Positions 1 through 4,372 of a DNA stretch of 54,924 nucleotides are shown piece by piece. The stretch comes from Candidatus Magnetocorallium paracelense (lineage in GTDB: Bacteria > Nitrospirota > Thermodesulfovibrionia > Thermodesulfovibrionales > Magnetobacteriaceae). The notes below the pieces were generated by a model. That model was not told the origin of the DNA. It searched no databases and saw nothing but the letters and a program-made list of their open reading frames with translations. The translations under genes were made by a program, and so were the position numbers. The stretch's first letter is position 1, and each line of letters opens with the position of its first letter. The DNA is taken from assembly GCA_029001845.1 (NCBI GenBank), contig JAREWP010000064.1, forward strand, positions 1 through 54,924, read 5' to 3'.

Positions 1-225
1 CTTCACGATTTCACTATTCCTTTTACCAATAATCAGGCAGAGCAGGATATTCGCATGATGAAAGTACGACAGAAAATCTCAGGTTGCTTTCGTACTTACA
101 ATGGTGCCCTCTATTTTGCCCGTATCCGCAGTTATATCTCTACTGTCAGAAAACACAGCCAGGATATTCTCTCTTCTATTTACTATGCCTTGCTCTCTAA
201 TCCCTTTATACCTTCATATACTTAA
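1..225 (+). CDS. IS66-family transposase, C-terminal fragment (cut by window start)
   Basis: Frame 1 is open from the first base to TAA at 223-225 and gives 74 residues. It contains NNQAEQDIRMMKVRQKISGC and, further on, FARIRSYISTVRK. Both are the conserved C-terminal signature of IS66 TnpC transposases, and the Glu of NQAEQD is the last residue of the DDE catalytic triad. The rest of the protein lies outside the window, so completeness cannot be judged. The right end of the element probably lies in the 100 bp after the stop. It marks the left side of an accessory segment that continues with a conflict-type primase-helicase and a toxin-antitoxin pair. Confidence 0.88.
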   Translation, partial: LHDFTIPFTNNQAEQDIRMMKVRQKISGCFRTYNGALYFARIRSYISTVRKHSQDILSSIYYALLSNPFIPSYT

Positions 226-335
226 TGTCACATATTTATACCTGAGTAGTTACAACGATTATAATTTTTCAAACAGCAGCTAAGCAATACATAAGGCGAA
301 GTCTTTTATATCAAGATTGTCGGAAGTTAAAATTC

Positions 336-2723
336 ATGTTTAAAGATCGAGAAACAATTCTTAATATCAGGTTAAAAATTAAAGAGAGAATTAAGGAAAT
401 AGATGAGGAACGAGCCAAATTACAAAATGATCTGGAATTTTTACAAAGAAGGCTTTTAGAATTTGATGAGCAGAAGGGTGAGAAAAAGAGATCGGTTTTA
501 TTAAAAGATTCTGATTTATTGCTTCAAGAGAAAATAAACCTTCTCAGAAAGTTATTCAGAGGCAGAGAAGATGTATATCCTAAGCTATGGGAAAGCAAAA
601 AAACCGGTAAAAAGGGCTATAGTCCTGTTTGTGAAAATGAATGGGTTACAGGTCTATGTAAAAAACCTAAAATAAAATGTGCCGGTTGTGAAAACCGCAT
701 ACTTGCTCCTCTAACCGATTATGTAATCAGGCAACATCTGGAAGGTAAAATTACAATAGGTATTTATCCTTTACTTACAGATGAAACATGTTATTTTTTA
801 GCTGCTGATTTTGATGGAGAAAACTGGGCTCAGGATGCTTTAGCTTTTCTAAAAACTGCTCACACTAATCATATTCCTGCTTATCTCGAACGCTCCCGAT
901 CAGGTAATGGAGGACATGTTTGGATTTTTTTCTCAGAGCCGGTGCAGGCAGTTTTTGCAAGACAAATGGGTAGTATTCTTATTGAAAAAACGATGGATCA
1001 AAGATACCGCTTGGACATGAGGAGCTATGATCGCCTTTTTCCGAATCAGGACACTCTTCCTAAAGGTGGATTTGGAAACTTAATAGCATTACCACTTCAA
1101 AAATTCCCAATAGAAAAGGACAACAGCTTGTTCATTGATGAAGAATGTAATCCATACCCGGATCAATGGACGTATTTGTCCAACATTGACAGATTATCGG
1201 AAAGAGAAATATTCTCATTTATAGAAAAATCTATAAAGAAGAACAAGGGAAAAGAGCCCGACAGTGTACATGATAATGTAAAACCGTGGGAAGAGGTTTT
1301 ATCACTAAAACACGCTTCCATTAAACTCACCTGTGAGCTTCCTGACAAGGTCACTATTGTATACGCAAATCGCTTATACTTAAAAAAGGAGAATTTACCT
1401 CCTCAGCTTTTAAGAGAAATCAAAAGACTTTCCTCTTTTCATAACCCTGAATTTTACAAAAAGCAAAGCATGCGTTTATCAACAGTAGGCATATCAAGAA
1501 TTGTTTGCTGTGCAGAAGAGTTAAATGAATATGTGACCATACCCAGGGGTTGTCTTGAAGATTTGATTGGCCTGCTAACGGAGAATAATATATCTTTAGA
1601 TATTCGAGAGGAACTCAATTCTAAATATGCAGACTTTAAATTTTATGGTGACCTTACTAATGAGCAGAAGGATTCTTTTAGTGAATTACTAAAGCATGAT
1701 ATAGGAATTTTAGTAGCTTCTCCCGGTATGGGTAAGACAGTTCTTGGCACATGTATGATCGCTGAACGAAAAACGAACACCCTTATTCTTGTTCATCGAA
1801 AAATGTTAATGGAACAATGGATCGAACAGATATCCTCTTTCCTCAATATCTCTGTAAAAGAGATAGGCAGAATCGGTGGAGGAAAGTACAAACCTAACAA
1901 AATCATAGACGTAGCAATGCTCCAGAGCTTAGAAAAAAAGGGAGAAATAGATACATTAATTAAAAACTATGGATATATCATTGTGGATGAATGTCATCAT
2001 ATCCCGGCTGTTTCATTTGAACGTGTTATGAATGAAGCAAATGCCAGATATATTACCGGATTGACTGCTACAATTGAGAGACGTGACGGGCATCATCCTA
2101 TAATTATGATGCAATGCGGTCCGATACGCTTTAAATCTGACTCTCATAAAAGTCAATCAGATCATTTTACCTGCAAGTTAATTTCAAGAGCGACGCACTT
2201 TGTGATGCTAATATCCGAAGGGGATAGTATCCATAAAATATGGCCTGAATTGATAAAGGATGACGAACGAAATCGAATGATCTTCAACGATGTCATGGAT
2301 GTACTTGCAGAAGGCAGGTGTCCTATTGTAATTACAGAAAGGATAGAGCATATCAATATTCTTCAAAATTTATTTGAAAGCACTGTTGACCGACTGATTA
2401 TTTTACATGGCAGGATGAAATCCAAGACCAGAGTGGACATGATGAGAAGACTTCAAGAGTCTTCCTTTTTAGAAAAGAGATTAGTCTTAGCAACCGGTTC
2501 TTATATAGGAGAAGGATTTGATGATCCGCGTTTGGATACTCTTTTTCTTACTATGCCTGTTTCATTCAAAGGAAGGATTATTCAATATGCAGGCAGATTG
2601 AACCGTACTTATTACGGAAAAAAAGAACTCAGAATATATGATTATGTCGATACAAGGGTACCGGTATTAGAAAGAATGTATATGAGAAGAACTAAAGCAT
2701 ACAAATCATTAGGTTTTAAATAA
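336..2723 (+). CDS. AEP primase-SF2 helicase fusion (TOTE conflict-system type)
   Basis: A 795-residue multidomain protein. Residues 1-55 are a charged predicted coiled coil. Residues about 95-125 carry a Cys cluster (two well-spaced Cys, then CAGC) likely to bind zinc. Next is an archaeo-eukaryotic primase palm with ADFDGE (D158, D160), SGNGGHVW (about 189-196, catalytic-type His) and RSYDRLFPNQD. The C-terminal half is a superfamily 2 helicase: Walker A SPGMGKT (about 461-467), DECHH (551-555), TGLTAT (about 574-579) and QYAGRLNR (about 750-757). This architecture is known from the so-called TOTE conflict systems, thought to act against or alongside mobile DNA. ATG follows CGGAAG by about 9 nt. 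Base composition is AT-rich, and the gene sits beside an IS66 end and a toxin-antitoxin pair, which suggests horizontal transfer. No partner nuclease is visible in the window. The substrate is unknown. Confidence 0.85.
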   Translation: MFKDRETILNIRLKIKERIKEIDEERAKLQNDLEFLQRRLLEFDEQKGEKKRSVLLKDSDLLLQEKINLLRKLFRGREDVYPKLWESKKTGKKGYSPVCENEWVTGLCKKPKIKCAGCENRILAPLTDYVIRQHLEGKITIGIYPLLTDETCYFLAADFDGENWAQDALAFLKTAHTNHIPAYLERSRSGNGGHVWIFFSEPVQAVFARQMGSILIEKTMDQRYRLDMRSYDRLFPNQDTLPKGGFGNLIALPLQKFPIEKDNSLFIDEECNPYPDQWTYLSNIDRLSEREIFSFIEKSIKKNKGKEPDSVHDNVKPWEEVLSLKHASIKLTCELPDKVTIVYANRLYLKKENLPPQLLREIKRLSSFHNPEFYKKQSMRLSTVGISRIVCCAEELNEYVTIPRGCLEDLIGLLTENNISLDIREELNSKYADFKFYGDLTNEQKDSFSELLKHDIGILVASPGMGKTVLGTCMIAERKTNTLILVHRKMLMEQWIEQISSFLNISVKEIGRIGGGKYKPNKIIDVAMLQSLEKKGEIDTLIKNYGYIIVDECHHIPAVSFERVMNEANARYITGLTATIERRDGHHPIIMMQCGPIRFKSDSHKSQSDHFTCKLISRATHFVMLISEGDSIHKIWPELIKDDERNRMIFNDVMDVLAEGRCPIVITERIEHINILQNLFESTVDRLIILHGRMKSKTRVDMMRRLQESSFLEKRLVLATGSYIGEGFDDPRLDTLFLTMPVSFKGRIIQYAGRLNRTYYGKKELRIYDYVDTRVPVLERMYMRRTKAYKSLGFK

Positions 2724-2778: not shown

Positions 2779-3081
2779 TTATCTTTTACTCCTTGTTTGC
2801 CAATGCTTTGGATGACGACTGCAATGCATTACAGCAAATATAATAACAGTTTCTCCCTCAGCTCGATAATATACTCCAAAAGGAAAACGATGAATCATGG
2901 CTCGACGTGTTTGCCTGTGAACTATCGGATACATTTTGCAATTGTCCGGAACTGTTTCAACAACACGTAAGAATTCATTGAGAAATTCTTCTCCGAGACC
3001 TTTGCGTTGCTTTTCATACCAGACAGCTGCATCCTCAATATCCGTCTCTGCTTCCGGTCGTATATGTACTCTTAGACTCAC
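2779..3081 (-). CDS. RelE/ParE-superfamily toxin
   Basis: A 100-residue basic protein. It has the ParE/RelE pattern of an N-terminal IRPEAETDIEDAAVWYE helix, a central RRAMIHRFPFGVYYR strand pair and a C-terminal hydrophobic strand ending CSRHPKHW. Family members poison gyrase (ParE) or cleave mRNA on ribosomes (RelE); the W-Y-E and FPFGVYYR signatures are closer to ParE-like proteins, but the target cannot be decided from sequence. It starts at GTG, and GTGA overlaps the stop of the upstream antitoxin by 4 nt, so the two are translationally coupled. Length is normal and no damage is seen. Confidence 0.85.
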   Translation of the reverse strand: MSLRVHIRPEAETDIEDAAVWYEKQRKGLGEEFLNEFLRVVETVPDNCKMYPIVHRQTRRAMIHRFPFGVYYRAEGETVIIFAVMHCSRHPKHWQTRSKR

Positions 3082-3287
3082 AACCGAACTCTTATATTTT
3101 CGACTACTTCACTAACTTCACGACCTATGTTTCGATCCAGTTCATAAGCATCCAAACGGCGATTAAGTTCAGCTTCTTGCTCATCTGTTAATGGTATAAT
3201 GGACTGATCAGCGGCGATGCTGTCCCAGATATCCTCAACTATTCGAATTCTTTCTCCTATCGAAAGATTGCCTATATTTGCAGCCAT
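3078..3287 (-). CDS. Addiction-module antitoxin (PF09720-like)
   Basis: A 69-residue acidic protein with the layout of the small 'addiction module' antitoxins: SIGERIRIVEDIWDSIA, then a loop, LTDEQEAELNRRLDAYE, and a short tail that would thread onto the toxin. It lies immediately upstream of, and overlaps by 4 nt, the ParE-like toxin gene, the usual antitoxin-first order. A clear Shine-Dalgarno AAGGAG stands 5 nt before the ATG. By analogy the pair should be autoregulated, but I see no convincing palindrome in the short leader. It probably stabilises the accessory segment. Confidence 0.82.
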   Translation of the reverse strand: MAANIGNLSIGERIRIVEDIWDSIAADQSIIPLTDEQEAELNRRLDAYELDRNIGREVSEVVENIRVRL

Positions 3288-4296: not shown

Positions 4297-4372
4297 TGGT
4301 GGACGGTAGGGGAATCGAACCCCCGACCCCCACGTTGCGAACGTGGTGCTCTCCCGGCTGAGCTAACCGCCC
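4297..4372 (-). tRNA. tRNA-Ala (anticodon CGC), CCA encoded
   Basis: On the minus strand the 76 nt fold into a standard cloverleaf. The acceptor is GGGCGGT/ACCGTCC, the D-arm starts at TTAGCTCAG, and the anticodon stem CCACG/CGTGG encloses loop TTCGCAA, giving anticodon CGC (reads GCG). The T-arm has GGTTCGATTC. The third acceptor pair is G3-U70, the main identity element of tRNA-Ala, which confirms the assignment. The 3' ACCA is encoded. The 3' end faces the accessory segment at lower coordinates, the usual orientation for an integrated element. Confidence 0.96.

Follow-up and report, generated by a model that had tools for sequence, protein, structure and literature searches.

The window analysed here, a contig of 54,924 nucleotides (C78 in our numbering) from Candidatus Magnetocorallium paracelense, has close to its left end an intact gene for a putative primase-polymerase fused to a helicase, flanked by an insertion sequence (IS) on one side and a toxin-antitoxin pair on the other. 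We questioned whether this gene belongs to a known conflict system, to the neighbouring IS or to mobile DNA of another kind, and what its product might do for the DNA that carries it. The genome (6.0 Mb, 99.6% complete, 103 contigs) contains a single full-length copy. We favour, at a probability of roughly 0.5, a self-contained, horizontally mobile primase-polymerase/translocase that would open and re-prime DNA, its gene stranded intact in decayed mobile DNA. The gene and its parts, with AEP denoting archaeo-eukaryotic primase, are as follows.

336..2723, forward strand: AEP primase-polymerase/XPB-like helicase fusion protein of 795 amino acids, a single open reading frame (ORF) starting at ATG.
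348..488, forward strand: long N-terminal helix, residues 5–51, poorly conserved (conservation 0.13–0.25); from the structure model and alignment.
528..1211, forward strand: AEP domain, residues 65–292, including the zinc cluster C99/C108/C115/C118, D158–D160 and H194; from Pfam AEP-TOTE (E=9e-99) and CAPP structures.
1341..2720, forward strand: XPB/UvsW-like unit, an N-terminal region (residues ~336–435) and two RecA-like lobes; from profiles, alignment and the model.

A previous inspection of the DNA letters (the sequence-only reading) had proposed that one gene joins a coiled coil, a Cys cluster, an AEP domain with intact DFD and His motifs and a superfamily 2 (SF2) helicase, and this architecture was borne out by Pfam, alignment and modelling. 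The suggested search with the AEP-TOTE profile (PF22548) gave 330 bits against a curated cut-off of 27, placing the protein in that family, and further Pfam matches to ResIII (residues 444–582, E=1.6e-22) and Helicase_C (653–757, E=1.2e-5) delimit an SF2 helicase region at residues ~440–760. The AEP domain had been placed at residues 125–300; it is present, but starts at about residue 65, since the Cys cluster lies within the domain. Helicase motifs comprise Walker A (GKT, 466–468), a DEAH-type box (DECHH, 551–555) and QYAGRLNR (750–757). When the window protein was aligned with 100 homologues, the four cysteines, D158-F-D160, H194, GKT and the DE of DECHH were almost invariant, being kept in 96–101 of the 101 sequences. 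The window protein deviates at 8 of 176 near-invariant columns (the median row at 2), and one of these deviations, N756 instead of H in motif VI, is common to its closest relative (L043). Judged by its reading frame and motifs, the gene is intact and encodes a predicted primase-polymerase and helicase fusion of the known AEP-TOTE family.

An AlphaFold2 model was built from 30 homologues (mean pLDDT 83, pTM 0.67) and compared with known structures by VIA-align and Foldseek. It consists of a helix (residues 5–51), an AEP fold (~60–304) and an XPB/UvsW-like unit (~335–795), although at a pTM of 0.67 the placement of the two halves relative to each other is not readable from it. The AEP part superposes on the Marinitoga CRISPR-associated Prim-Pol (CAPP) structures 7nqd and 7nqf (Z ~25, root-mean-square deviation 2.6, 33% identity), and residues 125–300 do take this fold. 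Residues 335–795 match XPB (Z 24–25) and T4 UvsW (Z 22) at 16–20% identity, and the XPB-like match extends to the region preceding the first RecA lobe. The likeness to XPB/Rad25 and UvsW thus covers two RecA-like lobes plus the preceding domain, whereas the window protein differs in its primase fusion, in scoring below the XPB cut-off and in having no nuclease partner such as Bax1.

The name of the AEP domain invites the reading that the protein is the effector of a full TOTE conflict system (TPR, OB, TBP, Effector; PMC12458937) whose other components are encoded elsewhere in the genome. Besides the TOTE-named Pfam domain, a second AEP-TOTE protein, bearing the likewise TOTE-named PF22709, occurs in the genome's CRISPR locus. 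However, TBP (PF00352) had no match in the genome while archaeal controls gave matches, and no TPR or OB (cold-shock) partner was recognised adjacent to the gene in the window or on the upstream contig C96, the genome-wide search having been confined to TBP. TPR, OB and TBP were likewise missing from the neighbour families seen most often around some 100 homologues. As the TBP test fails and no partner is adjacent, the locus was not filed as a TOTE system, a reading that was already disfavoured and that we consider very improbable. What it shares with TOTE systems is the AEP domain, with no system of that kind demonstrable around it, so that "TOTE-type", as the sequence-only reading put it, is apt for the domain and not for the locus. 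The same domain underlies the NCBI name "TOTE conflict system archaeo-eukaryotic primase domain-containing protein", which E. coli homologues bear in RefSeq.

The closest described proteins are non-CRISPR "CAPP-helicases" (type 3, class CAPP_A; PMC8211822). A 2021 study (PMC8211822) reported helicase-fused CRISPR-associated Prim-Pol proteins together with non-CRISPR relatives that reside in mobile elements; the window protein has the same order of a CAPP_A-fold Prim-Pol followed by a helicase, the Marinitoga CAPP fold match and a mobile-element context; its strongest PADLOC matches are CRISPR-associated PrimPol models. It differs from them in lacking a recognised cas1/cas2 or CRISPR array association: no cas genes were recognised among the flanking ORFs of the window or C96, and no CRISPR array beside the gene. 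The family had been called poorly studied; it is not wholly undescribed, given this report and the RefSeq name, and the window gene is a new member of it, with the delimited transposon cargo described below possibly new relative to the open-licence literature searched. The PrimPol-PV1 supergroup (PMC5862659) likewise has AEP domains fused to helicases and borne by integrated elements, but is defined by its own motif and by partners such as PriCT, MCM, VirE or DUF3987. In the same genome, contig C44 (L190, 215–7362) holds a CRISPR locus with repeats GTTTCAATCCCGTATAAATCCGGTC flanking Cas1-like and Cas2-like genes (named by eye), together with a 509-amino-acid PrimPol (AEP-TOTE plus PF22709, Mu_Gam-Sipho_Gp157-TOTE), a separate 465-amino-acid reverse transcriptase and an unknown gene of 321 amino acids; from its gene content this locus looks like a reverse transcriptase-plus-PrimPol spacer-acquisition module.

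Mobility is shown for relatives of the gene. On the Escherichia albertii plasmid pESA134_1, a resolvase, the AEP-helicase and a Tn3 transposase lie inside a Tn3-family element of 6,142 bp with 38-bp ends matching at 37 positions, present as two 100% identical copies in opposite orientation (L202, 4569–10710 and 13820–19961). On plasmids of the Roseobacter group, the AEP-helicase adjoins three tyrosine recombinases (an RIT element) within terminal inverted repeats of ~150–180 bp, longer than the short repeat of the published RIT description. In both Pukyongiella and Sagittula, a pair of plasmids from one cell carries this element (6,291–6,292 bp) in copies with different flanks and 100% or 99.98% identity (L219/L220, 6225–12515; L221/L222, 6337–12628), and the element also occurs at L145, L223 and L224. 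Since published RIT elements measure ~3.5 kb (PMC3414803), the AEP-helicase-bearing element is a four-gene form. Between two genera, the AEP-helicase and ritC are nearly identical and ritA is 77% identical, a pattern that suggests reassortment. In a tree of 110 rows, the Tn3-borne and RIT-borne proteins fall in separate, distant, supported clades, and the gene has therefore been captured at least twice. In E. coli, the gene ends a block of helix-turn-helix (HTH), DUF3987/YfjI and inovirus-type Gp2 genes; the elements that carry this block are integrated by tRNA-Thr or tyrT-derived small RNA genes. The homologue neighbourhoods are thus mobile (Tn3, RIT, integrated elements and plasmids) and not restricted to core contexts, the alternative that the sequence-only reading had set against its proposal. 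Carriage as transposon cargo is demonstrated for these relatives, as distinct from the window copy.

These contexts also bear on the idea that the protein is a replication helper, priming or restarting synthesis for its own element (a Tn3 cointegrate, an RIT intermediate or an integrated satellite) and not for defence. Tn3 elements replicate during transposition, the E. coli block closed by the gene is replication-like, and in the plasmids inspected with this RIT subtype the AEP-helicase lies directly beside the recombinase trio. Against this, the length of published RIT elements leaves no room for such cargo, a recognised transposase is absent next to most chromosomal homologues, and neither an origin nor a replication partner could be recognised in the window; on balance we regard a helper role as rather unlikely. 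An Enterobacter Tn3 relative without an annotated AEP-helicase was found, and this is no proof of dispensability, because it resembles a deletion derivative and its transposase is broken.

For RIT copies, the ratio of nonsynonymous to synonymous substitution (dN/dS) was 0.07–0.09; for Tn3 copies it was 0.12 and for E. coli copies 0.20, values that indicate purifying selection on the protein; between the window gene and its nearest relative the ratio is uninformative owing to saturated synonymous sites. Distribution is patchy: a match was present in 55 of 295 Nitrospirota genomes, many of them partial or helicase-only, same-family relatives were mostly without the gene, and the nearest named homologues are in Nitrospirota assemblies. 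Of 5,426 complete E. coli genomes, 868 contain DNA closely matching the E. coli homologue, and of 277 plasmid records with a match, 91 match across 80% or more of the protein. A phage origin was considered and rejected: no match in phage records reaches 80% coverage of the protein, and those listed lie mainly in the helicase half. In the L043 record (JADFXO010000054.1, 5,000–16,661), a several-kb stretch is present twice, spanning a ParB-like/methyltransferase gene and the beginning of the AEP-helicase; the second copy is broken, and IS66 tnpA/tnpB-like ORFs follow closely behind it.

Another explanation is a benefit to the host, with the fusion acting as an accessory PrimPol plus UvsW/RadD-like enzyme that re-primes past lesions and is carried as a fitness gene for DNA-damage tolerance. 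XPB, UvsW and RadD are repair or recombination motors, and PrimPols re-prime and bypass lesions (PMC5295015). Yet a housekeeping repair gene would not usually be so patchily distributed, so often truncated and missing from most close relatives, and the commonest neighbours show no repair-operon link. We judge this explanation quite unlikely.

How the gene came to its present position is recorded by its flanks, which include the following features.

1..253, forward strand: right end of an IS66-family IS (transposase C-terminus in bases 1–222, then the terminal repeat ATTTATACCTGAGTAGTTAC); from Pfam DDE_Tnp_IS66, NCBIfam IS66 and genome matches.
254..261, no strand: 8-bp target-site duplication AACGATTA; its partner copy adjoins the IS66 left end on C96.
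2779..3081, reverse strand: ParE/RelE-type toxin of a toxin-antitoxin pair (Pfam ParE_toxin, E=3e-8).
3078..3287, reverse strand: antitoxin (Unstab_antitox, TIGR02574; Pfam, NCBIfam).
4297..4372, reverse strand: tRNA-Ala (CGC), the first chromosomal gene past the decayed stretch, its 3' end facing that stretch (ARAGORN, Rfam).

With a start only 82 bp past the IS end, the gene might be taken for a passenger of the adjacent IS66. Other genomic copies of the IS match the window here, mostly ending at about base 253, with flanks unrelated past that point. The genome yielded eight left ends of this IS. For six of the eight right ends, a single left end carries the identical 8-mer, and the window right end pairs with the C96 left end only, via AACGATTA. 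The paired ends and 8-bp duplications show that insertion of the IS, 82 bp ahead of the gene, divided the locus in two. Passenger status is refuted, since the IS ends at 253 with the exact duplication, the gene starts at 336 and the other copies share nothing beyond. Both the IS66 and the toxin-antitoxin pair do lie near the gene, as had been remarked, but the IS66 is an incidental neighbour and no part of a unit with it. In this assembly, IS66 copies mark many of the contig ends (C19, C42, C48, C53, C55, C62, C65 and C96 with C24, C29, C45, C70, C75, C76, C78 and C79). The 8-bp duplications allow such ends to be rejoined, and six of the joins are unambiguous.

The join made it possible to read upstream of position 1, as had been recommended. 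The nearest recognisable gene on C96 is a tyrosine recombinase broken by frameshifts and stops (a decayed integrase), followed by chromosomal-looking genes. Downstream of the gene come the toxin-antitoxin pair, ~1 kb of debris, tRNA-Ala and thyX. With a broken recombinase on one side and the toxin-antitoxin pair and debris on the other, the gene appears as an intact survivor in decayed mobile DNA. In agreement with the first inspection, no adjacent nuclease gene was recognised on either side, including C96. Integration of a whole island at tRNA-Ala was considered and rejected, there being no repeat of the tRNA 3' end on C96. Relatives having thyX have no tRNA beside it, and no empty site is demonstrable because eight relatives gave no match to the C96 core gene and thyX was found in only four.

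Neighbours of the homologues are often of toxin-antitoxin and defence-type families (profiles, PADLOC). Among 147 direct neighbours scanned, AbiEii was commonest (9), then ResIII/SNF2 helicases, AAA_14, Fic, YhcG and AlbA; among 101 fifth neighbours, AbiEii was not in the listed families common to at least two. AbiE was the most frequent neighbour overall (22 loci). An SNF2-type helicase of 800–900 amino acids lies near the AEP-helicase in L045, L100, L123 (6 bp away), L131 and other loci. Four related genomes belonging to a single family (L135–L138) have a small gene resembling an HTH antitoxin that stops 2 bp short of the AEP-helicase, a spacing that suggests co-transcription or control by an antitoxin-type repressor.

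Taken as a self-contained primase-polymerase/translocase, the protein would work as follows. The XPB/UvsW-like motor would load on double-stranded or branched DNA (a stalled fork, R-loop or D-loop) and open or regress it by ATP hydrolysis, and the adjoining zinc-supported AEP domain would make a primer de novo and extend it with deoxynucleoside triphosphates on the exposed strand. DNA synthesis could in this way be reset or restarted during conflict between host and mobile element, and transposons, integrated elements and plasmids would pick the gene up as cargo owing to that benefit. We infer both activities, their coupling and the benefit to the carrier; relatives of solved structure have each activity separately.

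Several results weigh against this reading. The open-licence literature searched yielded no functional test of any full-length member with the helicase fusion. The NCBIfam trusted cut-offs for XPB/Rad25 were not reached (NF045503, 74.9 of 610 bits; TIGR00603, 39 of 328.7 bits), and the resemblance of the modelled motor to XPB is one of fold only. AbiE is only mildly closer to the gene than chance, with 14 loci within 1.2 kb against 10.6 expected, a weak enrichment. Only small sets exceed chance, partly in related genomes: HigBA (8 near loci against 3.5 expected), SNF2 (5 against 2.1) and AlbA (5 against 2.1). Even these enrichments are only suggestive, because some loci are related, neighbour ORFs came from a simple longest-first calling rule and the distance tests were uncorrected for multiple testing. 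A fixed operon partner was sought by neighbour clustering in about 100 loci and none emerged, so that context does not name the target.

Independent captures by transposons, together with selection on the protein, nonetheless mean that the carrier gains something, be it defence, element replication or repair, which this argument leaves undistinguished. Defence or conflict is the likeliest use of the protein. More tentatively, and with the odds against it, we propose a one-gene, partner-free primase-translocase module, captured by at least two unrelated transposon types and by integrated satellites, that might serve as a portable device for immunity or replication takeover by priming DNA on rival elements' genomes. 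This is a large family, found in many laboratory-accessible bacteria, and as the mapped 6.1-kb Tn3 and 6.3-kb RIT elements are small natural units, the choice between defence, repair and element replication is directly testable.
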